From Lactobacillus sp. Sy-1 (lineage in GTDB: Bacteria; Bacillota; Bacilli; Lactobacillales; Lactobacillaceae): DNA of 64,000 nucleotides. Both the position numbers and the translations under genes were made by a program. The notes under the pieces were generated by a model, which was not told the DNA's origin, searched no databases, and was given only the letters and a program-made list of their open reading frames with translations. Shown piece after piece: positions 22,171 through 44,200 of the stretch. The stretch lies in NCBI RefSeq assembly GCF_019303535.1, contig NZ_JACCIU010000001.1:558001-622000 (forward strand), read 5' to 3'. Position 1 is the stretch's first letter, and every line of letters begins with the position of its first letter.

Positions 22171-23160
22171 CTAGTTAACGGGACTGAATGGGGTTTCCCC
22201 ATCAATGATTTGCTTGGCGTTGTTCAATGAAATTTGGACCATGTTTTTAACTGCCATGTCGGTGTAAAAGGCAATGTGGGGAGTTAAAACCACGTTCTTC
22301 ATTGGTAGTAGGGTATCAATATATGGGTTGCCAGTTTTATCACCAGGCACCTTGTGGGAGAAGTAGGCGTCTTCGTCTTCGACCGTATCGAGTCCAGCGG
22401 ATTGGATTTCGCCGTTCTTAAGGGCGTCGATTAAGTCGGGAGTGTTGACCACTTTCCCCCGTGAAGCGTTGATAAAGATGGCGCTCTTCTTCATCTGCTT
22501 AAAGCGCTTAGCATCCATGAAGTGGAACATATCATCAGTTAATGGCGTATGCATGGTTACAATGTCCGCTTTAGCAAGTAGGGTGTCGTAGTCCACGTAG
22601 TCGAGCGTGTCAGCTAGTTCGGGCCGGTGAATCGGATCGGTTGCGATTACGGTTGAACCGAGGGCCTTGAAGATTCTGGCAACGGTGCTCCCGATTTTAC
22701 CAGCTCCGATGATGCCGACGGTGAGGTTATGGATTTCTGGGGCTTCTACTCCAGCCCAGCTGAAGTCGTTATGGTGTTCGTTGACTTCGATCATGTGAAT
22801 CTTTCTGAGCATCGTCATTGTGAGGGCGAGCGTGTGTTCTGCTACCGAACGGGGGGAGTATGCTGGAACGTTGGTGACCGTGATGCCATTGTCGCGGGCG
22901 GCCTTTAGATTGTAGATTTCATAACCAGTACTCCGTACGGCGAGGTTCTTAATGCCGTGCTTAGCAAGTGCTTCGTACACCTTAGGGTCTTCCAGTGGTT
23001 CTAGTTGTAGAACGGAGATTCCGTCGTACCCTGCTACCTTGTCAACGTTATCCAGGCTAAGTTGTTCTGGAGTGGCATCGACGGTTACGTTGTTAGCGTC
23101 CGCCCATTCCTTAGTTGCTGGTTGTTCATCTGGTCTGGTTCCAAACATCAAAATTTTCAT
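22171..23160 (-). CDS. ldhD: D-lactate dehydrogenase / D-2-hydroxyacid dehydrogenase
   Basis: A 329-residue NAD-dependent D-2-hydroxyacid dehydrogenase. It has the catalytic-domain sequence VRSTGYEIYNL, the Rossmann motif GIIGAGKIGSTVA, the substrate-binding Arg in NASRGKVV, the Glu in LDTVEDED and the catalytic His in LTPHIAFYT. The closest match by eye is lactobacillal D-lactate dehydrogenase, which reduces pyruvate to D-lactate, reoxidises NADH and supplies D-lactate for peptidoglycan precursors; D-hydroxyisocaproate dehydrogenase is the main alternative. AGGAGG lies directly behind the U-tract of an upstream terminator, so expression should depend on read-through of the leader described at 23175-23361. 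Confidence 0.88.
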   Translation of the reverse strand: MKILMFGTRPDEQPATKEWADANNVTVDATPEQLSLDNVDKVAGYDGISVLQLEPLEDPKVYEALAKHGIKNLAVRSTGYEIYNLKAARDNGITVTNVPAYSPRSVAEHTLALTMTMLRKIHMIEVNEHHNDFSWAGVEAPEIHNLTVGIIGAGKIGSTVARIFKALGSTVIATDPIHRPELADTLDYVDYDTLLAKADIVTMHTPLTDDMFHFMDAKRFKQMKKSAIFINASRGKVVNTPDLIDALKNGEIQSAGLDTVEDEDAYFSHKVPGDKTGNPYIDTLLPMKNVVLTPHIAFYTDMAVKNMVQISLNNAKQIIDGETPFSPVN

Positions 23161-23174
23161 TAGTAAATCCTCCT

Positions 23175-23255
23175 AAAATAAAAAGCCACCCCTAGATTAT
23201 CCATGGGTGGCATTTGTTATGCCCACCCGCGCTTGCGATATAACTGCGTGGGTGG
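23175..23255 (-). promoter_or_regulatory. Four-segment transcription attenuator before ldhD
   Basis: Read on the minus strand, four complementary segments occur in order: 1, CCACCCACGC (23255-23246); 2, GCGCGGGTGGGC (23232-23221); 3, GCCACCC (23211-23205); 4, GGGGTGGC (23192-23185) followed by TTTTTATTTT. Pair 1:2 has nine pairs and one mismatch. Pair 2:3 can form nine pairs with one bulge (GGGTGGGCAT with ATGCCACCC). Pair 3:4 is an intrinsic terminator. Pairs 2:3 and 3:4 exclude each other, the classical attenuator plan. The stop codon of a leader reading frame lies 7 nt before segment 1. Confidence 0.75.
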
Positions 23256-23262
23256 TTTAAAA

Positions 23263-23361
23263 TCAACTTAAAGTGATTTTGGCATCACACAGAAATGAAC
23301 GCAAGCGTGTGAAACGCCAAAATCGAGCACTAATATTTAACTGAATGTCGTTTTTGATCAT
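23263..23361 (-). CDS. Leader peptide of the ldhD attenuator, 32 residues
   Basis: A short frame starts at ATG 23361 with AAGGAG 9 nt upstream and stops at 23263. It encodes 32 residues beginning MIKNDIQLNISARFWRFTR and is rich in Arg, with Phe, Trp and Cys. The codons from about 13 to 30 lie inside a long RNA hairpin (23324-23316 with 23283-23275, and 23312-23307 with 23290-23285) that a moving ribosome would open. A good start signal, the position of its stop next to attenuator segment 1 and a promoter just upstream all indicate a regulatory leader peptide rather than a functional protein. The signal sensed is unknown. Confidence 0.7.
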   Translation of the reverse strand: MIKNDIQLNISARFWRFTRLRSFLCDAKITLS

Positions 23362-23393
23362 TATTAAAAACTCCTTAGATATTAGTTACCATT

Positions 23394-23421
23394 ATCATAC
23401 AATTTTAATTACAAAAGTCAA
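23394..23421 (-). promoter_or_regulatory. Promoter of the ldhD leader
   Basis: On the minus strand, TTGACT (23421-23416), a 16-bp spacer and TATGAT (23399-23394). Transcription would begin near 23387, giving a leader of about 225 nt before ldhD. Confidence 0.7.
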
Positions 23422-23458
23422 GATTTCCTTTATTTTGTTTAGTAATGCTTAAGCCTAA

Positions 23459-23487
23459 TTGCAGACGCCGGTGGAATATAAGATAAT
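23459..23487 (+). promoter_or_regulatory. Promoter of galE
   Basis: TTGCAG (23459-23464), 17-bp spacer, GATAAT (23482-23487). It diverges from the ldhD leader promoter, about 40 bp away. Confidence 0.5.
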
Positions 23488-23531
23488 TGGATTATCGATT
23501 TTAAGAGAACAAGAGAAAGTGAGATGTAAGT

Positions 23532-24530
23532 ATGGCAATTTTGGTTACAGGTGGTGCTGGATACATTGGTTCAGAGACCGTCGCAACATTGATTAAGGAC
23601 GGTTACGAAACCATCGTCGTTGATAATCTATCAACAGGGCACGTCAAAGCCATTGACCCTGCAGCAGAATTTTACGAGGGGGACGTTCGGGACCGTGAGT
23701 TTCTAGACTACGTTTTTGCCCACGAATCAATTGATGCGGTCATTCATTTTGCTTCTGATTCAATCGTGGCGGACTCGATGAAGGATCCGCTCAAATATTT
23801 TGATAATAACGATGGTGGGACAATTTCATTGCTGGAAGCAATGCGCGATCATGGGGTTAAGAAGCTCGTCTTTTCATCGACGGCAGCCGTTTACGGCCAA
23901 CCAGATGAAATGCCAATCAAGGAGGATGCGCCTAAGCACCCCACGAATGCGTACGGCCAAAGTAAGTGGATCATGGAGCAAATGGCCCACTGGGCAGACG
24001 TTGCCTATGGGATTAAGTTTACGGCGCTGCGTTACTTTAATGTTGGTGGTGCCAGTCGCGATGGTGTGCTAGGTGAGGATCATAATCCTGAAACGCACTT
24101 GATTCCAATCATTTTGCAGGTTGCTAATGGTCAACGCGATGTCTTTAAGATGTTTGGGGATGATTACCAGACCCCTGATGGGACCAATATCCGCGACTAC
24201 GTTCACGTTGTTGACCTTGCTAATGCCCATGTGCTGGCAATGAAGCGCCTCTTGAACGGCGGCGATTCCACTGCCTTTAATATTGGGTCTTCGCACGGTT
24301 TTTCTAATTCGCAGATTTTGCAGGCGGCCAGAAAGGTAACTGGTGATCCAATTGAGACTGAAAAAGCGCCCCGGCGACCGGGTGATCCAGACGAACTAGT
24401 GGCCGATTCGACACGGGCGCGGACCGAATTAGGTTGGCACCCCCAATTTGACGATATTGAATCGATCATTAGTGACGCTTGGCGATTTAAGCAGGCCCAC
24501 CCGCACGGTTATGAAAAGCGGAAACAATAA
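23532..24530 (+). CDS. galE: UDP-glucose 4-epimerase (GalE)
   Basis: GalE interconverts UDP-glucose and UDP-galactose, feeding cell-wall and exopolysaccharide synthesis and galactose use. The 332-residue protein has the NAD-binding TGGAGYIGS motif near the N-terminus, the catalytic Ser in FSSTAAVYG, Tyr and Lys in NAYGQSKW, and the late RPGDPDELVADS stretch typical of the family. The ribosome binding site is weak (AAGTGAG). No Leloir-pathway genes adjoin it, which favours a role in envelope precursor supply. Confidence 0.93.
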   Translation: MAILVTGGAGYIGSETVATLIKDGYETIVVDNLSTGHVKAIDPAAEFYEGDVRDREFLDYVFAHESIDAVIHFASDSIVADSMKDPLKYFDNNDGGTISLLEAMRDHGVKKLVFSSTAAVYGQPDEMPIKEDAPKHPTNAYGQSKWIMEQMAHWADVAYGIKFTALRYFNVGGASRDGVLGEDHNPETHLIPIILQVANGQRDVFKMFGDDYQTPDGTNIRDYVHVVDLANAHVLAMKRLLNGGDSTAFNIGSSHGFSNSQILQAARKVTGDPIETEKAPRRPGDPDELVADSTRARTELGWHPQFDDIESIISDAWRFKQAHPHGYEKRKQ

Positions 24531-26295: not shown

Positions 26296-29200
26296 ATGGG
26301 ATCTGAAGCCAATCAAATAAATTCGTCAGCTAACAACACACTTTCAGCCGCTTCCAGTGCAGCGCTGGCTGGTTTTAGTGGTGTTGATAGCCAATATGGA
26401 GTGGCTGCTAAAAATTCAATTGACGCAATCGTTAAATCGATGGCTGTTGATATCCAAAATACCGATGTTTCTCAAACTCCGATCGTTGAGTCACTTACTT
26501 CAAAATCGGTTTCATTAATTAATTCAGCAGCACAACAAGTTGTTTTAGAATACGCTAAAGCAGCAATTTCAAACTCAGTTAAAATTGCCAACAATCGGGC
26601 CCAAGAATTGGACGACGTTGCTAAAAGTAGTGCAACGGTTGCAATTTCTTACTTTGCAGGTTCCGCATATGGAGAAGCATCTAATTATGCTACTCCATCG
26701 GAAGCAACTTCAGGAGTGAATGCGTTCACTGCTGCTATTAATAGTGCCATTAATAATGCAAACTTCTCATCTGCTAACGTCGTGGTTACCAAAGCCGCTG
26801 AATCACTTACTTCAAAGACTAATTTAATGCAAAGTACTGCCGCTGAAAAAGCCAGTCAAGCTATCGAAACGACTGCTAATCAAGTTATTAATGCAATTAA
26901 GACCCAGGCTGCGGACATTAACGCTGCGGATTCATTAGCCCAAAGTGGGGTCGAACAACTTGAATCATTAGCTAGCGAATCCGTTTTAACTTCCGCAAAT
27001 GCGGCCGTAGAAGACGCTTACCACCGCTTTAAGAATGATTTAGTGCAAGTGTCCGATGCAGTGGCTAAGGACGCCTTAGCCGCAATTGAAGACGTGTTAG
27101 CACCAGTTTACGATCAAATTGAATCTAACGTTGCCGAACCACTTAGTGCGAGTGCGGACGCAAGTAATGCGATTAGTTCAATGAGCCGGATTTTTACCAG
27201 CTATGGGAACAATTTAGTTTCAGCTGGGGTTAAGGAATACACTAGTTCGGCTTACGCCACGGTGGGCTACTTGAACGATGATGATTTGTTGACTGCCAAT
27301 AGCATGATTTCTAGTGTTGCGGACGATGTTTTATCTAGTGCTGATAGCATTAACACCAGTGCTGCTGATGCAGTAAATCGTTTTTATGGATTGATTCCAT
27401 ATGCATCACAATCAATTAAGTCGATTGCCGATGAAGTTAACATCCATTATGCTGCATCTGCATTAAGTACTGAATCTGCAAATGCTGGGGTCCGGGTGCA
27501 TCAAGTATCAACTGACTTAAAATCCACGTTTGCCAGTGCCGTTAGTTCTTATACTGATCAGGTACAAAGCCAGGTGCGGGGACTAGCTAGTCGTCCTGAC
27601 ATGCTGCAAAACACGCTTTATTCAGCAAGTAATGAAATTGATGCAATGGCTAATTCAGCAATTGCTTCCGACCCATACGCTTCTGCGTGTGCTTCCGTGG
27701 ATACCGCTTATTCTGAAGCTAATGACCAGTTAAACTTACTATCATCAGACGCAATTTGGAACGCTTCCAGTGCCGTAAACGTGGCAATTAAGGATGCGTA
27801 TCTTGCTGCTGATGCTAATCGCAATGACCAAGCCCAATTGAATCAAATTGGTGAGAAAATCTACAGTACCGTTTCCCAGGTTATCCATAGCTATGCAACT
27901 TCGGCAGCCTTTTCTCAACTAGCTGGTGCTTCCGCAGCAGCCAATTCCATGATTGAACAACTCAGTAACGTTGCTGATCAAAAGAGTGCCGCAGATCGCT
28001 TGAGCCAGATTCATGATGACGCTAAACGGGCGGTAGAAGTTGCCCCTAATATCCACTTGACTGCTAAGTCAGGGGTTAGCACGATTGAATCCGTGGCTGC
28101 TGACTTGATCAGCACTGACCCAACGGTTTCTGCATACTATGCGGTGCAAAATACGCTTAGTTCTGCTGCTGCCAAGGGAGTTTATCTCGACCAATTTAGT
28201 CACGATAACGCTACAAGTGAAGTTACTCGTGTGGCCAATTCTGCTAGTTCCGCCATCAATGAAGACATTGGGAATGCGAACGCCTTAAGCAAGGATGTTG
28301 ACCAGGCTTCTTTAGCTGCGGATGAAATTATTAACCGCTATAACGTTAATTCAGCTCAGTCTGCAATGAACGAACTAGCAAGTAGTGCTAAGCACGATAT
28401 GCGCAATATTGCTGACGATACGGTTTCATTCCAAGCTTCCAGTGCGGTTACTTCAATTCGGGTATCATTAACTGCAACCCTTAACCGGGCTTCAGACCGA
28501 CTTTCTACCATTTCTTTAGCGATGAGTTCTGCTAACTCATCCATCGATAGTATCACCGCTCGTTACGTGGGGGCTGATATCGCTGCAGCTGCTTATTCCA
28601 AGGTGGATTCAGTTGTCGCTGCTGCCACTTCTGCGGCCGCTGAATTTGATGAAAGCAACCAGGGCAATGCTGATAGCGAGGTTGCCAAACAACTCGATAG
28701 TACCTACAAGGAATTAGCCACCACTCGTGATCATAATGGAGTGGCTTCACAAGCTAGCCAAACCATCTACTCGGTATTGAATCGTTACACGTTATCATAC
28801 ACTAGCGTTGCATTTAGTAGCGCTACCAGTTCTGCCCAGTCCGAGCTAGACTCCTATGGCGTCTTAGACGGTGATGCTACTAATCAAATCCATCAATACA
28901 TTCAGTCTGCATCTGAAAACATCAAGAAGGATGCGCGCCTTTCTGACGTCGTTTTATTAGACCTTAGAAATGGACTTTCCGCGGTTGATTCATATGTTAA
29001 TCACTTAATCAGTAGTAATTCCAATGCATCTGCAATTAGAGCGGTTGAAAGTTATGCAACCGAATTAGTAGCTGATCGCTCAGCTGCTAATTTTGATTTT
29101 GCTAACTTTAGTAGTGCTGTTACCAAGACCACTGCGACTAATTGCTCAACCATTCGGGCGGTCGAAGATAAAGCAACCATTGATCAATTAGTGGACGTTA

Positions 29201-32200
29201 CCGGGACTGAAAATACGGAACATTTCAAGAGCAACGTGGCTGATTCCGCAATTACTGCGGTGTCCTTAGTTGCCGATGATGTGCGGACTAAGCTGACCCA
29301 GGCTAGTTTGACTGCTGATTCCACGATTAATCAATTGGTGGATAAGTACGTTACCTTAATTAAAAAGGACGCTGAAGAGTCTAAGTTTGCCGATCTTGAT
29401 AGTAAGAACGGGATTCGTGCGCTTAAGCGATTATTCGCAACCACCGTTAACGATCACCCAAAGGTGGCCCAAGTTTATCGAATCGATTCATTAGTTAGTT
29501 CTGCCAATTCAATGGCAGTAAACTACATTTCTGATTCAGCAGACGTAGCATTGAGTCGGGACCTTTACCGGGCGGCAAGCAGTGCTAAGTTAACAATCAA
29601 TAGTGCTGATAACGACCTTCAAGTATCGAACGCTGCTGATGATGCAAATAACACGATTAATTCAATCGTTAATTCGCATATCGCAGCTAGTGCATTAGAA
29701 ACAATCGAATCTGCTACGATGGTTTCCATCGATGATGTTGCCGACATTAAGAACTCCGGTAAGTTAATCGATGCGCAAAATGAAATTCATTCGATGGCGC
29801 AAGATGGGTTTGACTTAATCCGGGCTGATGAAGCCAAGCCAACCGTTGTAAATACCGACGTTAGAAATACCATTAATAATTTGAACTCCATGGCCCAGGC
29901 CGCAATCGGTGATGACTCTACCGCCGCTGCCCTTAGCCAAGTTCATTCCATGGCTAATAGTGCTAAGTCCAGCGTTTCACTTGAAAATAGTTCGGCTGCG
30001 CTTAATTTTGATAGCTCCGTTGCAAAGTTAGTTAATCAATCGACTAATGTGATTACTAGCGACAAGGGTGAATCATTAATTGCGCCTGAATTAACCACGC
30101 TTAAGCAGGATTTAGACCAGTTAGCAGACCGATTTAAGCTTGATTCTGTTAACGCTAAAATTACTGACGCTGCAGATAATGCCAAGCTTCAATTTGACAT
30201 GCTTCGTGGCGCCGATAAACTCACGTTAATTAGTCAGCTGGATGCGCTGGTTGACGGTTCTGAAGAATTATTCAAGACCGATTTAAACTCCCCAGCAGCC
30301 TTAAAGACCGACATTAATAACGTTTTATTTAGTCTGCGTGAATTTGTTGATGCGACGATTTCCAATAATCGCTTTGCAACCGCTAAGTACGACTTAAACT
30401 CAGCATTATCATCTGCTGATAGTACTGCTGCAAAGTTATCCGGAAGCATCGCTGCCAACTTAAATAGTGACATCGCTAGTGCCGACCATGAATTTTCTGA
30501 GCAGCTGAGTTTTGCTGATGATGACAATGTTCAATCAGCTGCTAGTTCAGCAGTCAATGCGCTTGGAACGACCGTTAATAACTACGTTGCGACCTATGCT
30601 AATGAAATGATTAATAACGCTGCTGCAAAGCTCTTTGCTAGTGCACGCACGTACCAAGGAATTAATCGGACGGCGCTTGAAAATAACTTTAATACCATCT
30701 TAGAGAAGGCTACTAATACGATTCAAAGTGATAGTAGCGATATTTCACTTGCCGTATTGGATGCCAAAAACGCAATCAATGCTCTATACAATGAATTTAG
30801 GGATGTTGTTACTGCTAATGGTGAATCTAAATATCAATACACCCTTAATAATTTGAAGCGTTCTGCAGTTGCTGCTGCTGGATCAATGGATAGTTTTACG
30901 GCTGCTAACATGGCCAGTGCGTTAAACAGCACTGCAATTGCTGCCAGTGGCCATTCTAACGTGGCCAGCGCTCAAATGAGTAGCGTTGTGAACGCCTACC
31001 ATGCTTCTAACGCGCAATCTGAGGTGGTTGCCGCAGCAACGGCTGCTCACCGTCAGGTTCTCCAACTCAGTAACGTTACCAAAATTAGTACTTCTGCTGC
31101 CATTAATAACGTGGTGGCTTCAACTAGCTCTGAAATCAACGCTGATGTTCAAGAAGCGAAGTTTACCAGCTTGGATGCTAAGGATGGAATTGTTGCCATC
31201 AACAAGATTCTGGATTCCGCAATTGCTGATGACTTCCGGGCTTCAACCAATAGTTTTGCTGCCAGTGCCACTAGTGCGGCTTTTAACCGTTTAGGCTCAT
31301 TAGATTCGCACACGTCACTAGTTGCTTCCAATCAAATTCAACAAATTGTTGATCGGGCCGCTAGTAACAACCAAGCTCCCCGTTCACTAGCTCATGAAAT
31401 TAACCAAGTAGCAAATGAATATCTAATTCAATCCGCTACCAGTGCGGTAAGTGCAGCTGCTGATTCAGTTCGGGACCAATTAAAAACCAATTCTGATCGT
31501 TCAACCATCATTAGTGAAATTAAAAAGATTGTTGATGACACCAATCAAAAAGTACGGGTGGATGTTGAAAATCCGGCTTATCTTTCACTAGATATCGATA
31601 ATGGAATAGCTGCATTGAACGGCTTAGTCGCTGAATTCCAAGACGATAAGGTTGCTGCTATCAGTGCTGAAATCAACTCTTCAGCTAGTGATTTGAACCA
31701 AATTGTTACGGCTGATGAATTGGCTAAGACCAACATCAGCAGTGCTGCTGCCAGTGTTGCGCGGATTGCAGCTAAGAATATCGCAAACGTTATTTCTGAC
31801 TCTAATGCTGTGGCTGCGTTTACCAATTCCGCTGCTAACCAATTTGACGACATTCGGCGTTCCTACTTTGCGAGTTCAGCAAATAACACGATCGAAAGCG
31901 CCGTTGTTAGTGCCAAGTCACACGCTGCCGTAATTGCTGATCCTAATAATCTAGACCGAATCAACGCCCAATTTAGTGGGGTGGCTGAAAGCTTTAAGCA
32001 GCTAGTAAGTAGTGATGCAATTAGCTCCAGCCTAGCTTCATTGGATGCTGATAATGCTGTTCTAGAAATTAACCGCATCGCTTCACAAGCGGTTGATGAT
32101 AGTCCGGTTGCTTCCACTAAGTATGCTGTAAGCAGTGCAGTTAGTGCTGCATTCAGTAACGCTACTTTAATGACGCGTAGCCAAAGCGATAACTATGAAA

Positions 32201-35200
32201 GTGCAATGGCTAAGGTGGTTGCACCAATTGATAGCATCAATAGCCAGGCTAGTTCTGGATTAGGGAGCCTCGTTGACTCCGTAATGAGTGGACTATCTTC
32301 TGTTGCTAACCAATATTATGGTCAGTGGGCTACTAGTGCAGTGAGCCAAGCTGCCGATGATTTATTTACAGCTGCTGGTCACTACAATGGCGATGTTGCT
32401 AGTGAAGCTGCTTCACTAGCTACCAAGTATCAATCCGAGTTCAGTAGCCAGTTTGAACGTGATTACAGCGATGCTGATTTGATCGTCTTAGATGCTCAAA
32501 ATGCGGTTAAGTCGATTAATTCAGCTGCTTCCGAAGCCGCTTATAACGACTCGATTGCGTTTGCAAACGCTGCAATTAGTGACCAAATCAGTAGTGCTAA
32601 TTCCGTGTTGACCCAATTGAACGGCCATACTGATAGCACCGCTGACATGCAAATGGATAGTGTTGCCAACCAGGCGAACGAAAAACTAGGCTCCGTTTAC
32701 AGTAACTTGAATGCTGTAATGATGGTAATTAACTCTGCTTCCGGAGCAATGAATGACATCGCAAACTTTGTAATCGTTAGTTCTGCACATTCAGCAGTGG
32801 GCAGCGTTGCCGATTCACTAATGGTGCGGGCGGTTGAATTAACCGATGGAGATAAGCAATCCACCTTAATTAGTTCGGTTAAGAACACCGTTGATACGCT
32901 TGATAACACGATTGATGCCCATTCTAACTACCCAGTTTCAGTTTCCATGGCTGCTGAGAGTGGAATGCATTCCCTCGCCGACAGTATGTTTGAAGAATTC
33001 AAACAAAACCGTTCGGCAAGCGCTGAAATTGCTTTGCAATCATTAGCTTCTTCAGCTGCAACTCAAGTCGGGGATTTGGATTCCTTCGCAAGTGCGAACT
33101 TCAGTAGTGCTGTTGGTAGCATTAGTCGGCGGACGAATGCTTATTTGGCTGATCAATTTAACAGCCCCAAGCGGGTGGAGTCAGAAATTAAGTACGCCGG
33201 AAAGGCAATCAAAAAGCTGATTCAAAATGCCATTGCGGATTCCGCAAATGCGTCTGTTGATAGTGAAGCTGCGTTGATTAAGGAACAGTTACCAACGATT
33301 GCGGATGAAGAACTCAGAAGCAGTGTTACCAGTGAAGTTGACGAACACTTGACCAAGGCTCAATTCATGATCAAGAGTGATGCTTTTGATTATCAATTAG
33401 CGAGCCTAGATGCTTATAACACAGGCGTTTCTATCAACTCCATTGCTAGTTCAGCATTTCGGGCTGACTCTACCGCTGCTCAGTCACTAGCTAACCGCAG
33501 TGCGCTTTATTCAGCACACGCTAAGATTGGTTCACTAAGCGGTCTCCAATCAGTTACGTTTGATAGTCAAATTGCTGATTTAAATACCAGTAAACCAGCT
33601 GAATACCAACGTGAATTAGACTCAATCGCGAGTGAATTCATTAAGGATTCTGCTGAAACCAAGTTGAACACGACCCTGGCTAGCGCTAGTGTGCGTGCAA
33701 ACGTAGTTAGTGATACCACCAGTAAAAATAATTTAATTCAAGCAATTACTCAGCGAGCTGAACAGGCAAGTATGGCAATTCAAATTGATGCTCAAAACGC
33801 TAAATTTGCTTCCCTAGATGCAAATAATGCTACGAGTACCATCTCTTCAATGGTAAATGAAGCCATTGAACGAGATTCAGTTGCCTCAGCTAGCGTCATG
33901 ATTCAAAAGGCTGCCGATTCAGTGATTGCCCGGATGGGTTCATTGGCTAGTGACCAACAAATCCGCTTTAACAAGCAGGTTGATGGGATTACTAGCAATG
34001 CCAATACTTCGTTGATTGGCCCATTCGCTGATAAAAATAATGTAATTAGCCAGGCCAGCACCCAGATTGAAAACCTTGCAAATGCTTACTTATTAAGTTC
34101 TGCCTATAGCGCAGTTGATGAGTTGGCTTCTTCAGCGAGCGTTCAAACCGCTGACCTTTCAGTTAATGATTCGTTAAGTGTAAAGACTTATATTGACAGT
34201 GCGTTAAGCTCTGCCGACTCACAAATTAGTGCCCACAGTGCTTCTGATTCATTGATTGCCGATGCGGTTAATGATGCTAATAATACGGTGGAAAACCTTG
34301 CCAGTGCTGCGGTTAATAATTCACCAATGGCAGCAGCTAAGCACAGTTTAGCCTCCGTTCGAAGTAGTGCGACTGTAATTGCTAGTTCATTAAGTGGGCG
34401 CAATGCTGCTAACTTCAGTAGTGCAATTGCGAGCGTTAACGTTCAAGCAATTGATAGTTTCACTGCCGACGATGCGACTGCTAACCAACAGGCATTGCAA
34501 AGCGCTGCTCAATTGATGAGAAACATCTCTAACTTCCATGCTGCCAAGGGGGCTCTTGGTCAGATCATGGATGCTGCGAGTGCTGCTGAAACTAAAATTA
34601 ATCGGATGGCTGATGATGATAAGCGGAACACGGCATTAACTGATATTGCTAACACAATTGATGAATACCGGCTTAGAATTCAAAATGATACCGATAATCT
34701 TAAGTTAATTAACTTGGATGTTATTAATGGCCAAAATGAATTAGCAAACGTAGCTAATAATGCCATTAAGGCTGATGAGGTTGCTAAGGCGCTTGCTGAT
34801 CTTGACAGCCACGCCAACACCGTTGCTTCAGGTGCCGCTAACTTTAGTTCACTAGCCAGTGCTAACTTAAGTAGTGCTGTGAATGACTTGACCAGCACGG
34901 CGGTTAACGACATGGTTTCCGTTAAGAACGACCCCGCTGCAATTAAGGGCGTTCAAGAATCTGCTGAACAAAAAATCAATCAGCTCTTTAATAGCTATGT
35001 TACTGATTCAGCAGTTTCAGAATTGGATTCCATGCGTGCCCAATTGAAACACCGCATTGGGGATATTCAAGTTGCTTCAGTTGCTAATGAAATCAACACC
35101 CACTTGAACGCATTCCAGAGTAGCGTTGCTAGTCAGGTCGCAAAGGATGCCCACTCTAAGGCGTTTGTTGACCTAGACTTGCGGAATGCTAATTCATACA

Positions 35201-38200
35201 TGAATAGTTTTGCCGATAGCAACGTTCAAAGAGATGTGATTGCCAGTGCCGCTTATGATATTCAAGGGCTGATTACGGCTGCTAATAGTCGGGCTCAGCA
35301 CTTATCAGGAAGCGCTGCTGATAACTTCAGTAGTGCCATTAATAGTGTGTCTAGACAGGCAACTCACGCTGCTAGTGGGGTTAGTGATTATCGGACGTTA
35401 GATACCATCATTTCTGCTACTGATAAAGAAGTTAGTTCGACGGTTGGGAACTACCTAGTGGCTTCAGCGTATGCTAAGCTCTCAACGGTTACTAGTGAAG
35501 CTAGTGCTGCCATGAACTATGTTGATGGTCAAACTAAGATGGATGCGAATAAGGCGGTTAATTCAGTGGCTAACTCCGCTGCTCAGTTAATCCACGGGGA
35601 TTCCACCGATGACCAACTGATTAGTCTAGACGTTAAAGAGGGAATCCAAGCGATTACTTCCATCACTAACTCAGTGGTTGCGAGTCAACCATTTGCGAGT
35701 GCCCATTCAGTAGTTGCCCACACCGCTAGTGTTGCTATGCAAAGGGTGGGAAGCTTAAGTTCATTCGCCTCCGCAAACCTCAGTAGTGCCATGAACCGCT
35801 TTAAGAATGAAGCCCACGCAAGCATGACTTCATTCGGTGCTGACGAAGCTGCAATTGACTCGGTTCAAAATGAATTTGTGGAATCAATTAACGATGTGGC
35901 CAATAGCTACGTTGCTAGTTCTGCTTCTGAATTAATTACCCATGCAACTGACTCTGCTTATAACGTTATTAATCAATTTAATAACTCAGAAGCTACTTCT
36001 ACTGCTAATGAAACCATTGATAATACGCTTAATACCGTTGCGGATAACTTTGCTAAGGACAGTAATAATGCTTCATTGATGGCATTGGATGCTGCAAATG
36101 CAATTGATTCAATTCGTTCTGCCGCTCAATTCATTACGACTACCGACGAAGTAATTTCTGGAAACGTTTCAGTTCGGAGTGCTGCTGACTCTGCATATTC
36201 AGCAACCGCTGGATTAGGGCGCCCAACTCAATTAAATAAACAAATTAAAACCGTCATTGCGGACACTACCGGGCGCTTTGCTAATGGCGAAGACGTTGAT
36301 ATGGTTGTTAAAAATGCCAATCGTGACATCAACAAGTACGTTAGTGAGTTTGTTAATACCACTGCTGAAATCAAGTTAACTCAATTAATTGGTGAAGCAC
36401 AGACCCGTTTAGGACGGCTCCTAGATGGCACTGAATATAACTTTGCTGTTGATCGAATTAAGGAATTCACTAATAACGCTAGAAAAACAATTCAAAAGGA
36501 TGCTTACAGTGGAGAGTTAATCACCCTTGACCTAGTAAACATTGAACGTGAATTGAGTGCATTAGAAAATAAGATCATTAGTGAAAACCGCCTGGCAACT
36601 GCTTTAAATGCAGTTGATAATCATGCGAGTGCAGCCGTTAATAACCCATATCTATCAACTGCTGATGATCACTACTTGAACTTTAGTAGTGCTGTGAACT
36701 CAGTTGTGCGGGACTTTGATGCTGATGATGATCAAGTGGAAACTAATAATGCCTTTAGCCAAATTGATAGTCTTTCACAATCATATGCGGCTAGTCAGGC
36801 CGTTAACTTCCTATCAGTTCAAATTAGTAATTTAGATACGCAGGTTCGCGACCTCAGTAACTTTGTTACTCAATCGTCTGCTTACAGTGCAATTCATGAA
36901 ATTGCTAGTCAAGCAGTAATTAACATCCGGAGTGATAATGCTGACTTTGGTGCGGTTTCATTAGACGCAGATAATGCAATTAGTTCTGCAAATGCAATCC
37001 TTGCCAGTGCCGTTTCCAACGACTCAATCGCAGCTGCTAAGCGCAACGTTAGTTCGGTTTACTCAGAAGCTGCCAGTTTTGCGACCCGCTTAAGTTGGAA
37101 TGACTCGGTTGAGTTTAGTATGGCGATTGCTAGTCAAGATGCTAAGACCTCCTTTGGGACGGATGCTAATAATGCATCACTAGAAGTGGCGACCGAAAGT
37201 TTTGTTCGGAGCCTTGCCAATAGCTACGTTGCTAGTTATGCCAACTCATCCATTAGTGATACTGCTAGTAAAGCAATTGCAGACCTTCGGAACATATCTG
37301 ATTCCGAAGCTAAATCAACCTACGTAGGCACGATTAAAAACGTGGTTCGTGAAATTACGAACACGATTGCATCCGATACTGCCAGTCAAGATCTGGTTAA
37401 TATTGATGTCCAAAATGGGATCAATATGATTAACAGTCTGGCAGACTCAATGGTTAGAAATGATCCAACTGCTGCTGGTCAATACATCATCGCTAGTGCT
37501 GCTAGTTCAGCATTTGATGGGATGGCTAGTGGCAATGCCTTGGATGAAGCTAACTTCACCAGTGCCATTAATAGTGTGGCTGCCCAGGCTAGTTTATCAG
37601 TGAGCCTGGTTAGTAAGAACCTCGGATTAGTTAATCGGGCTGCTACTTCATCCACCAACAAGATGAACCGGTTAGCCGTTAACTACCGGAACTCACTTGC
37701 CCAGGCTAGTTTGAGTAGCGTCTTTACCTCAGCTAGCGCCACCGTTGATTACTTTAGCAATGAACAGACTAGAAATAGTGTCATGGCGGAAATCAATTCT
37801 GCAAACGAATACTTCAGTTCTTTAATTAGCGCTGATGCTTACAGTGCTGATTATGTTGACTTAGACCTTGAAAACGGGATTAGTAAAATTAATCGGACAG
37901 TTGATAGTTCTGCTGACTTTGATACCGCAGTTAAAATTCGCTTACAGCTAGCTTCAACAGCTGATCAAGCTAGTTTCAGACTATCATCGTTAAGCTCAAG
38001 TGTAAGTGCTAACTTCACTAGTGCTGCGCAGAAGGTTACTTCTCAAACGAATGGAATTATTTCATACGCTAATAGTGACGTAAACCTAGTTTCAGCTGCT
38101 ACTAGTTCTACAACAACGACGTTGCTCAGCTTAGCTGACAGCTACATGGCTAGTTCTGCTACGTCTGCAATTGATTCAATCGTGGCCACTACTAAGGACC

Positions 38201-41200
38201 ATTCATTGAACCTATTTGCCAATGCCGACGTACGTCAAATGATTCTTAGTCGGATTCAAGAACTTCAATCAGCCGGTTATACAACCATCGAACGCGATTC
38301 TGCTGATGATGATTTGTTGGCGTTGGACGTTCGCAATGTGGAAGCAAGAATTTCCGCTGCCGTTGCCAAGGCAGTTAATAATGATGTCTACGCATCTGCA
38401 AACTACCATGTTCAATCGGTTTCTAGCTCATTGATTGCTGCTAATCAAGTTGAAGATCCCGTTGAAGTAGCACGGTTGAAACTGGAAATCAATAGCGCTG
38501 CTAAGAAGGCAAAGACCGATATTAGTGGGGCGGGGATGAACAATGACTTGATTCACGTTACTGTTGACTCGACTTCTTCATTAATGAGTAGTATTGCCCA
38601 AAGCTTTACCGTTAAGGCGGCTAGAAATCAAGTTAGTTCATACGTTGATAGTGCTAACAGCGCGCTTAGTTGGTTCAGCAGTAATGATGACTACCGGGCT
38701 AGAGTTGCCGTGGGAGTGAACTCATTAGCTGCACAAGTTAATAATCAAATTGAACGCTACGCAAGTGATGAAAATGCTAGAAAGTTAATGACTAAAAACG
38801 GTCAAAAGTCACTAGCTAACTACGTGGATACTTTGGTCCATCAAGAACCACAAGCATCCGCAAGTTACGCAGTGGCCGGATTTGCCAGCTCTGCAACCAG
38901 CGCAGTGGCTAGCATTAGTGGCTCTAGTCAAGCTAACTTCAATAGCGAAGTAGCAATGACCGCTAGAAGCGCTGATGAAATGAACGGTAGTATCGTTGAT
39001 GATTCTGAAACGGCTGAGAAGTTAACCAACTCGGTTGCTGATGCGTTCGACCAGGTTGCTCGTAAGTACGTGGCGGATGGCGGTTATACCGCATTGGATA
39101 CAATTACTAGTTCGGCTTATGATGTATTCTATCAATTTGGATTAAATGAAGACCAATTCGAGGGACCACTACAAGACTTTGCTCGTGAGTACAACAGTAT
39201 GGTGGATAGTGACGCTGCTAAGCAATCAACCGTGTTACTCGATTGTCATAATGCCAGTTTGGAAATGAGTCGTTTAATTGAGGACATTGCTGCTGATGAC
39301 TTAAACGCTTATTCTAAGTGGCAGGTACAAAGTGGTGCGGACTCCATTGTGAATAGTCTAGGAACCATCAGCAATGCTAGTTCCGCTGCTAACTTCAGTA
39401 GTGCAATGAATTCATTGGTTACATCTGCTAACGTTGCAATCGATAATGGTCATGATGATGAGTCGCAAGTCAATCAAGAAGTAACCGCTGCTAATACAGC
39501 CCTTCAAAACCTTGCAAACAGTTATGTTGTTGATTCTGCAAAGAATAAGGTGGCCCAAGCTCAATCTAGTGCGAGTGCATTAGTTAGTCAATTCGATGTT
39601 GCTGACCAGTTAACTTCGGTTGCGAATGCATACACAGAAATGGTCAACCAAGATAGTGCCAATAGCGCGTTTGCTTCGTTGGATGCTGATAATGGTTCCT
39701 TAGCGTTAGCTTCATTTGCTAAGCAAACCATCAGTAAGTCATCACAAGCTGAGCTTAACTACCAAGTTAACTCCGCAGCAAATACGATGGCATCTGCTGC
39801 AGCTCAGTTTGCTAGTGATGATCAAGTCCGGTTTAGTAGTGCGATTGCGAGTGTTGTTAGTGCTGCTGGAATGGTTCGATTGGTTGATGAACGCCACTTG
39901 AATCAAGTGGTTACGAGTGCCAGTCAACAAATGCACTCGGTTGCAAACTACTTCATTGGTAAAACAGCGATGAGTGAAATCGATGTTGCTACCACCAGTG
40001 CTAGTCAAAGGGTTGCTTTATTGCATAATGATGCTGCCAACGTGGTAATGAGTAGCGCTGCCGCTAGTGCTAATAGTGCGGTGATTGCTTACTCTAGTAA
40101 TCCACTTGCAACGTCACTATACGCACACGATGGTGTGATTGCAGCAAATTCACTTGCTGATAGTTTGATTGCTGAACATCCATTTGCTTCTGCAATTGAC
40201 CGGGTGAACCAGTTGGTTGACTCTGCCACTCACGATGTCTTGATGAGCGACAGCTTAGCTGACATGAACTTCTTGAGTGCGGTTGCTAAGCAAAGTAAGT
40301 ACGCAACAGAACAATTTAGTGCTGCTGCAACGAATGATTCAGAGCTGAATTCATTAGCTAATCAGGCCGAAATTGCGATTACTTCAGTTGCCAATAGTTA
40401 CGTTATGGATTCTGCCGGCGTGGTATTGAGTTCTGCAACTAGCTCTGCTGCTTCAGTGGTAAATGAAATTACCAACAACGTTGAACGTTCACAAGCAATT
40501 AATTGGATTAATAATCAAGCCAGTGTTGCAAGTGAATTGATCGCAACGGATGTTAATAATGATTCTCTAGTATCATTGGACCTTGATAATGCCATTATTT
40601 CGATTGGCTCGGTTGCTAATAGCGCAACTGAACATGATGCTCAGATTACTTTCAATAACTACATTACTAGTGCTTTCGATAGTGCTAATTCGCAAGCATC
40701 AGAACTAAGTGGGAGTTTGGCTGAAAATTACGATAGTGCAGTTAATAGCGCGAATAAATCGATTCGGGCTGAACACCAATCTGGAGCGGAACTCGATTAC
40801 GAATCAATTGATTCAGCAACGTCATTATTTGCAAGCATTGCTGCGGATTACGTTACTAGATCGTCAATTCAAATGATTGAAGATAAGATTGCTTCATTGA
40901 ATGCAACCGCATCACTAGGAACTGAATTCAATAACCAATTGGCATTTGTGAAGAGCATTTCAGAACAAACGATTCGCAACGATAGCTACGACGTCAAGCT
41001 AGCAACGCTCGATGCTGTTAATGCAGTTAATGCAATTCAAAAACAATTTGATAACTTGGTGGCTTCAAATCAATCACTATTGTTCCACCATCAATTAACT
41101 AGTCAGGCTAGTTCTGCTAGTGAAAAGGTGGGAACCATGAACTCACACAGTGCTGCTAACTTCAGCAGTGCTGCTAGTCGAATTGCCAACAACGCAATCA

Positions 41201-44200
41201 ACCAGGCCAATACCTTTGGTCAATCGGATGCGGTAGTTGCTAGTGCTGCTAGTGCGATGAATAGCCTTGCTAACGGCTACATTCTGAACTCTGCAATGAC
41301 TTCGTTGAATTCAATCGTTGATTCTGCGAACGTTAAAATTGCAACCGTTGATAACTACGTAATCGTTGAAAATGCAATTAACAGTGCCGCAACTGAAACG
41401 AGTGCTGCCATCATTAATGATAGTAATGATTCGGCAGTGGTTTCCCTCCGGGTTGCTGATATGCGGAGTCATGCACAATACTTGGTTGACAACGCAATTA
41501 GTTCAGATCGGACCGCTTCTGCAATGAACACGATTTATCAAATTGCTGATTCATTAATGAGTGACGCCGAATTGACTGGCCATGCGCAAGCATCATTTGC
41601 TTCCGTTACCGCAAGTACTGCTAGTTCAGCTAGTTACGACTTGCTTGGCCAAAGCAACATTATCAATACGATTAATAATGCTAAACAAACGCTCAAGCAG
41701 GCTGCTAACCGCTTTGTGGTTGAAACTGCAAATGAAATCGTGAATAAGGCGCTTGATATTGCTAATAACCAGGCCGTTGAAATCTATGACATCCATAACC
41801 GGAATAAGACGATTTCTGCAATCGGGGCGCAAGTAAGTCACGCCCGGCAATTAATCAAGGAACACGCTAATAATCCGTTCTTTGCCTATCTAGATGCGCA
41901 AAATGCCGCTGCTAAGATTGCTACGATTACCAGCGCTGCAGTTGGTTCAGATACGATTGCAACTGCCATTCTATCTACCTCCCGAGCTGCTGATCGGGTC
42001 GTAAAGAAGTTACGGCCATTGATTGACGAAAACGAAGAGTTCAGATTGAATAACCGCTTATTGAACATCGTTGACCAAACGAACCGTTCAATTAACGTTA
42101 ATGCTGAAGACTCAGCAGCAGTTAGCTCACATGCAACGGCTGCCGAATCAGCCTTTAACTCAATCGCAAGCAGTTATGTTGCTGAATCTGCTAACTCCAT
42201 CGTTACTGCTGCCAGTGATTCCGCAACCATTCAAATTGAAGGGTTGGATGATACTGAATCTAGAAATGAAACCAGTCAGTTCATTTCATTGTTGGTTGAC
42301 TCTGCTAGTTCAGCCATCGATAGTGATGCTAGTAACATTGCATACGCTTCATTGGATGCCACTAACGCTTCATCTGCAATTACTAGTTTGACCGCTCAGG
42401 CAATCAATGCCGACCCAAGTGCATCTGCAAATGCTACGATTTCAAAACAAATTGCATCTACTGCCGATACGTTGTCCGGGATGAAGACGAGCGACCGCAA
42501 TGCCTTTAGTTCGGCTGTGCTTTCAGTTGTGGTGTCTGCGAACGTTCAGTTTGCTAGTGCTGCCAGTGATGCGAGTGCAATCTCCAATATCACTGACCAA
42601 ACGCTTACGCAGTTGGATAGTGTTGCCCGTGAATTCGTGGTAACGTCTGCTAAGGCGGTTGTAAACGGGGCGGCCAGTGCTGCTACCCACCTGTTGGATT
42701 CAATGTTTGCAAACTCATCTGCCAACGTTTACAGTTCAGTTGCCAGCGTTGTGAACCAAGCAATCGTGGCTGTTAATAGTGATAGTAGTAACTTTGCGAC
42801 CGTTTCATTGGATGCTTACAATGCTTCTAGTGCAATCGATCAATTAGTTAAGACGAACGAAAATAGTTACGCGCACTCTGCAATTGATTCACAAGCTAGT
42901 TACGCCAATTCACTTGCTGACGTCTTGAATGACGCCCTCAGACCAGTTGCGGTAAACGGAATTAGCTTGCATGCCAGTGCTGCTCATAGTGCCGTTAATC
43001 TCCACTTTGGGCAAGCCCAAGCAACCCTATCGGATGTTAATTCAGCTGCTAGGGCAATGGACAGCTTAATCAACGAATACGTGGTTAAGGATCCAGTGGC
43101 ATCTGCCCACTCAATTGTTGCCAGTGCTGCATCATCTGCTAACGTTAAGGCTGCCAACTTGAATGATAGTTACTTGGCTGATATGAGTACTTCAATTTCA
43201 AGTGCCGCTACCCAGGCAAATACGTTGATTGCAATGAACCCAGCTAACTCTTTGTTGGATTCACAATTAGCTAGCGATGCTGCTAGTTCAATGAACAGTT
43301 TCGTTAACATGTATGAAGCTGCTGCTGCGAACGAAGCCACTACTAGTTACGCTGCTTCAGCATACGCTCAAATTGACTTGATGGATGATGAATTCAAGCA
43401 ACTTGCTAACCATGAAGTGGCAATGGAAGTTGATAATGCTAAGCAAGCATTTTCTGTAAATGAAGATGACCCTCGGGCAATCTTCGACAACGTGCAAAGT
43501 GCTGCTGATAACATGAAATTCTTGGTTGCTAACTACATTGCTAAAAACAGTAACGCTGTGGTTGAAGCTAAGCAATCATTTGCTGCTGATATGGATAGCC
43601 TTGCTGGTGACGTATACAGTCAAGCCCGGGTATTGAGTATCAATAACCGTGGTCAAATTAATAGTTTGACTGGTTCCGTTGCGAACTCTGCTAGTGCTAG
43701 CGTTAGTGGGGCAACAACGATTAGTAACGTTGCTTCAACTTTCCACAGTGCGAATGCATTAATTGGGAGTGTTGCTAGTGTTGCAATTAACTTTGCTCGT
43801 GATACCGCACGTGCAGAATTAGCAAACGTATTGCATGATGCTGATCAATCATTGAACTCAATGGAACCAAGTGCTAAACAAGCGGTTACCGCTTCGATTG
43901 ATGCTTTGATGTCCGGAGTGCAAGGGCGGATTACAATTGCCAACAATACGGTGGAAATTGTCAACGAAACCCAGTCACTGGTTAATCAAGTTCATGAAAT
44001 GGTTACATCTGCATTGTCTGCTAACCTGCGGAATATTAAGGATAGTTACAAGACTCAAATCTTGAACGCCGCAACCACTGCGTACCAAGACGTCAATGGG
44101 CTTGATTCTAATGCTCAATCATTGACGAATGCTGCAATTAGTATGGCGGCTAGTGATGCCAATGCTAATATCGATCAAACCAACCAGTTGGCTGAAATTC

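Follow-up and report, generated by a model that had tools for sequence, protein, structure and literature searches.

The window, a stretch of 64,000 nt from the genome of Lactobacillus sp. Sy-1, carries on its minus strand a gene for a D-2-hydroxyacid dehydrogenase of 329 aa (22171..23160), which is annotated as a D-lactate dehydrogenase type and belongs to an aminotransferase-linked clade. Upstream of this gene, a sigma-70-type promoter, TTGACT-16-TATGAT (23394..23421, minus strand, as for all leader features below; 10/12 matches), is followed by a ribosome-binding site AAGGAG (23371..23376) lying 9 nt 5' of an ATG at 23361, a leader peptide ORF of 32 codons (23263..23361) encoding MIKNDIQLNISARFWRFTRLRSFLCDAKITLS*, an intrinsic terminator that runs to 23175, and the dehydrogenase ribosome-binding site AGGAGG (23169..23174), with the gene ATG at 23160. 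All of these parts had been listed in an earlier note on this DNA and are present. The leader peptide contains three Phe and one Trp amid four Arg, and Tyr is absent. A Gln-Leu-Asn motif (QLN; CAG TTA AAT, 23335..23343), common to the leader family described below, precedes the proposed control codons Arg-Phe-Trp-Arg-Phe (23311..23325). Elsewhere in the window, a single ORF of 6402 codons (26296-45504, plus strand) with a high content of Ser, Ala, Asn and Asp probably encodes a giant surface protein.

From the control codons to the terminator, six segments form five alternating helices. Segment 1 (23307..23325) lies over the control codons and pairs with segment 2 (23275..23292) at -20.6 kcal/mol. 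The 5' part of segment 2, CUGUGUG, can instead pair with segment 3 (23244..23255) as helix 2:3, CUGUGUG:CACGCAG, and segment 3 alternatively pairs with segment 4 (23219..23232) as helix 3:4, CCACCCACGC:GCGCGGGUGG (-16.3 kcal/mol). The other partner of segment 4 is segment 5 (23205..23213), with which it forms the antiterminator 4:5, GGGUgGGCAU:AUGCCACCC (23219-23228 with 23205-23213; -12.4 kcal/mol). Segment 5 also supplies the 5' arm of the terminator 5:6, GCCACCC:GGGUGGC (23205-23211 with 23185-23191; -13.5 kcal/mol), in which segment 6 and the U-tract UUUUUAUUUU occupy 23175..23191. The four alternating complementary segments of the earlier note do exist, but the total is six, since segments 1 and 2 sit inside the leader ORF and are additional to its four; its nine-pair "2:3" and seven-pair "3:4" hairpins correspond to helices 4:5 and 5:6, which indeed exclude each other through their common segment, and do so in two species. 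The window leader RNA folds at -62.8 kcal/mol, compared with -46.1 +/- 4.4 kcal/mol for dinucleotide shuffles (z -3.8, 1/200). The 13-nt loop of the 5:6 terminator exceeds the 3-8 nt accepted by a simple terminator scan, which therefore did not call it.

The sole other species of the genus that was compared (G001) has the same layout ahead of an orthologous dehydrogenase gene (protein 89% identical), with both promoter hexamers kept and a short ORF with its ribosome-binding site again lying between promoter and terminator. Its leader, MIIKHTQLNISDRFWQFAGASTSSRAVKVLSI, likewise has 32 codons and retains QLNIS-RFW-F, including the FW-F of the control codons, while the remainder has changed. The earlier description of the leader as rich in Arg, Phe and Trp is accurate for the window, but the Arg richness is absent from the sister species. 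All five helices are present there with altered sequence: both pairings of segment 2 are kept in different letters, helix 2:3 being CGCGAG:CUCGCG in place of CUGUGUG:CACGCAG, and the terminator counterpart is stronger (-18.0 kcal/mol).

A DNA search with the leader across 398 Lactobacillaceae genomes turned up short leaders outside the genus whose peptides, for instance MTKSSETQLNTCRYYFWFFQI, carry QLN followed by an aromatic run (further examples are TQLNTCRYYFWFFQI and QLNNYYFSYFR). The window leader, QLNISARFWRF, fits the rule of this family, namely three or more aromatic residues shortly after QLN, and its control codons align with the family's YYFWFF run. A strict pattern search was positive in 28 of the 398 genomes, with no matches in the reversed control. 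A covariance model (R1), built from 20 aligned leaders of other genera with both species of the window's genus left out, finds the window element at 23222..23376, including the leader ribosome-binding site, with 49.8 bits and E = 5.9e-8 over 113,661 bases. Because the frequent start signal AAGGAGUUUUUAAUAAUG alone can contribute about 15-22 bits of R1 score (L047, L050, L052), a second model (R2) was built without the ribosome-binding site; it matches the window at 23222-23361 with 27.9 bits, which corresponds to E = 5.5e-4 for a search of 110 kb and to E = 0.010 for the complete 2.0 Mb genome. The window element is the top R2 match of its own genome, in which the scan gave no second credible leader copy, and R2 gives the sister species a score of just 17 bits (E = 0.17). 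Some DNA-search matches were rejected: the second one in the window's own genome (G000:C2:109359) has only a similar promoter and ribosome-binding site ahead of an ordinary gene, and L047, L049 and L050 (an argG-like and another match) are of this kind as well. In the 20-leader alignment, helices 1:2 and 3:4 covary, with 97.4% of cells paired and two-sided changes at 7 pairs, where shuffles gave 3.0 and slid helices no more than 2; helix 2:3 is 91.7% paired, yet its covariation does not exceed that of shuffles. Rfam gave nothing credible, neither at the gathering cut-off across the window nor with E relaxed to 10 in 23100-23600, the T-box model (RF00230) included, and had no match for the Lactobacillaceae family members examined. 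By model match, the window element thus appears to be a diverged representative of a leader-peptide family that ranges across the Lactobacillales, and the earlier proposal of a leader-peptide attenuator is well supported.

The genes behind these leaders, named by family scans of representatives and by sequence likeness for the rest, point to a common theme. Of the 28 strict-pattern leaders, 21 lie ahead of a class I aminotransferase, 5 ahead of a transketolase and 2 ahead of a PTS_EIIC_2 protein. R2 was positive in 133 of the 398 Lactobacillaceae genomes and in 19 of 40 genera, and 40 sampled weaker R2 matches precede an aminotransferase (14), a TrpX-like substrate-binding protein (PF04392; 12), a transketolase (5), aroE (4) or PTS_EIIC_2 (4), with the one remaining match ahead of an unassigned gene of about 190 codons. 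A recognisable aromatic-type gene lies downstream in all but one of 68 sampled Lactobacillaceae matches, and the class I aminotransferase targets are often followed by a D-2-hydroxyacid dehydrogenase of the window's type. In G231, the leader heads an operon of transketolase, aroE, DAHP synthase, aroB and prephenate dehydratase genes. An order-wide scan was positive in 45 of 295 genomes, many of them beyond the Lactobacillaceae, where leaders such as MLQKSKPQLNNYYFSYFR precede aroE operons and TrpX-like transporters. Judged from gene content, the leaders and their targets together form an aromatic amino-acid regulon, which probably is switched on when phenylalanine, tyrosine or tryptophan is scarce. 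The PTS_EIIC_2 membrane protein (PF13303) recurs under the leader, after the aminotransferase or beside a D-2-hydroxyacid dehydrogenase (L057, L058, L141, L157, L163, L175; L018, L019; L152, L174), and is a candidate for the transport of aromatic oxo or hydroxy acids. In addition, the gene for a protein of about 180-190 aa (L162 462-1028, L185 1752-2285), which matched nothing in Pfam or NCBIfam, stands first in some aromatic operons outside the Lactobacillaceae and in one inside.

The window dehydrogenase stands alone, with no adjoining aminotransferase. Nine of its nearest relatives, however, adjoin an aminotransferase upstream, and eight of these nine units start with an aromatic-rich leader. 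Phylogenetic analysis placed the leader-linked dehydrogenases, including that of the window, on one side of a branch (90/92), with the canonical D-LDH of the same genome on the opposite side; the best solved relative of the latter is 1J49, and this 1J49-like paralog lies at G000:C1:909340-910302. The window enzyme did not group with the canonical D-LDH clade (1J49/2DLD type) in the tree. Based on the aminotransferase-leader units of its relatives and on its tree position, the window gene probably encodes an aromatic D-2-hydroxyacid dehydrogenase that has lost its aminotransferase neighbour and kept the leader type, and the enzyme most likely catalyses the conversion between aromatic 2-oxo acids and D-2-hydroxy acids. 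Its earlier identification as a central fermentative dehydrogenase is therefore probably wrong. A scan of genome contigs with the dehydrogenase matched Apilactobacillus ozensis only, and no leader was seen there. EPSP synthase matches are present in the window's own genome and prephenate dehydratase was not found in it, so the organism may rely on external Phe, or on oxo or hydroxy acids as precursors. None of the aminotransferases of this genome has an aromatic leader; a T-box (RF00230, 100 bits) lies upstream of one of them (L092 2721-2967, minus strand), which suggests that this paralog is controlled differently. Both species of the genus possess a second large contig (C2 of 447 kb in the window's genome G000; C1 of 344 kb in G001) with several aminotransferase genes as well as an EPSP synthase, and this contig may represent a second replicon.

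Taken with the aromatic leader family, its aromatic targets and the enzyme clade, these observations make a classical amino-acid attenuator the most likely reading: with high probability, the element is a ribosome-mediated attenuator of the Lactobacillales family that senses charged aromatic tRNAs (Phe and Trp here; in relatives Tyr as well) and controls the D-2-hydroxyacid dehydrogenase. When aromatic amino acids are ample, the ribosome would pass the RFWRF codons and disturb or cover segment 2, helix 3:4 would form and leave segment 5 free, and the terminator 5:6 would stop transcription near 23175. When Phe or Trp, the presumed decisive amino acids in this species, is scarce, the ribosome would stall on segment 1, segment 2 would pair with segment 3, and the released segment 4 would form the antiterminator 4:5, allowing RNA polymerase to enter the dehydrogenase gene. 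In a crude folding model, in which the RNA is masked up to a stalled ribosome and the nascent remainder is folded at equilibrium, the 5' arm of the window terminator is sequestered with P 0.98-0.99 for a ribosome on Phe14-Arg16 and with P 0.15-0.43 for a ribosome on codons 20-32, which is the polarity expected of an attenuator. We infer the polarity from the classical scheme, however, because the masked folding does not tell ribosome positions apart in the sister species or in two family members (L061 and G014), and because read-through is predicted even when the ribosome is absent or sits at the stop codon. Against the aromatic reading also stand the modest R2 scores of the window (genome-wide) and of the sister species, the few aromatic codons of the window leader and its lack of Tyr, the lack of covariation in helix 2:3, and a genome in which neither prephenate dehydratase nor a second leader copy was found.

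The family poses the question of why QLN, which lies outside the control codons, is conserved. In a scan of 68 matches from fetched loci, which contains double counts and a few off-family matches (two of them evident), the Leu codon of the motif varies (TTG 34, CTG 19, TTA 12, CTT 2, CTA 1), the Gln and Asn codons are nearly invariant, and the last aromatic residue lies 7-9 residues after Asn in 58 of the 68. Variation of the Leu codon together with the narrow range of distances from Asn to the last aromatic residue suggests selection on the peptide. The peptide itself might then be the sensor: with QLN in the upper part of the exit tunnel while the aromatic run occupies the reaction centre, it would arrest the ribosome upon sensing a free aromatic compound or an aromatic-tRNA shortage. 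The persistence of QLN across the order and its spacing would agree with such an arrest, but the nearly fixed Gln and Asn codons leave room for a role at the nucleotide level, some members lack QLN (L143, L145, L148), and attenuation at a codon run accounts for the aromatic residues by itself; we regard nascent-chain sensing as unlikely.

The earlier note had considered the leader untied to one biosynthetic amino acid and had proposed that a ribosome paused at its stop codon reports on translation status. The paused ribosome would cover the arm that otherwise holds segment 4, so that any slowing of translation, whatever the amino acid, would lead to read-through. The window offers some footing for this, as its stop lies just ahead of segment 3, segment 4 becomes free (P 0.99) in the folding when the RNA is masked as far as the stop, and Arg codons are abundant in its leader. 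However, the stop codon falls 8-12 codons past QLN in most members and about 23 codons past it in the window leader, and this variable position relative to the segments argues against a pause at the stop. The conserved feature is instead the aromatic codon run, the targets are aromatic genes, and the Arg codons are missing from the sister species, so neither part of the earlier proposal is well supported and a sensor of general translation status is improbable. That the short ORF is fortuitous, with hairpins that insulate the gene or terminate constitutively and leader translation playing no regulatory part, would suit the full-length fold, which is dominated by the terminator in every state, but is very unlikely given the family match, the family covariation and the conservation of leader peptide and alternating helices in the sister species.

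The aromatic attenuator preferred here resembles the proteobacterial trpL, pheL and hisL attenuators in having a short ORF with pathway codons preceded by a Shine-Dalgarno sequence, mutually exclusive helices and an intrinsic terminator. The likeness is one of architecture, with no sequence relation claimed; the window comes from an order where T-boxes are usual, and it has six segments rather than four, the QLN motif outside the control codons and a D-2-hydroxyacid dehydrogenase as target. T-box leaders of Firmicutes amino-acid genes reach the same outcome, read-through on uncharged tRNA, whereas the window, which has no T-box match, would sense through translation of a peptide. Leader-peptide attenuation in Firmicutes has been noted as unusual, and has been noted for histidine genes (PMC2965389, PMC9413887); the hisZ/hisS and his operon attenuators are likewise classical systems in a setting where the T-box is usual, but they use His codons, control his genes, belong to other lineages and have no described shared peptide motif. 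The uORFC-13-1 motif upstream of aroF, whose 24 known examples are confined to Acholeplasma and environmental sequences and which is described by at least one Phe codon, shares with the window family the Phe codons in a uORF by a terminator and a downstream shikimate gene, but no QLN family was reported with it (PMC8632094). The Rfam model RF02863 (Enterococcus sRNA 2410) matches aroE leaders from families other than the Lactobacillaceae (L192-L195, L199) that carry a QLNNYYFSYFR-type peptide, although the window element has no RF02863 match at the gathering cut-off. In the accessible text of its report, E. faecium sRNA_2410 is a 195-nt RNA identified by RNA-seq and Northern blot with two transcripts, and is described there as an sRNA with no mention of a leader peptide, aroE or attenuation (PMC5593968). 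Because RF02863 represents an aroE leader belonging to the aromatic family, this RNA is probably a terminated attenuator leader, and a short RNA confirmed by Northern blot is what such a leader would be expected to yield. For Lactobacillus, Enterococcus and Lactococcus, no description of the family as an attenuator was found in the searchable literature, which subscription papers mostly lie outside, and the family is apparently undescribed as a regulator.

Collectively, the element reveals a recognisable leader-peptide regulon common to many lactic acid bacteria. In Firmicutes, T-boxes and protein repressors are the regulators usually ascribed to aromatic amino-acid genes. The regulon also offers an explanation for an enterococcal "sRNA", which is probably a terminated leader, and it suggests testable functions for the PTS_EIIC_2 membrane protein and the TrpX-like transporters. 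It would tie the aminotransferase and the D-2-hydroxyacid dehydrogenase to aromatic supply, likely as a route to phenyllactate and indolelactate, which are antifungal and host-active products. If nascent-peptide sensing were true, one peptide family would coordinate a scattered regulon of shikimate operons, aromatic aminotransferase, hydroxyacid dehydrogenase and transporters across a bacterial order.
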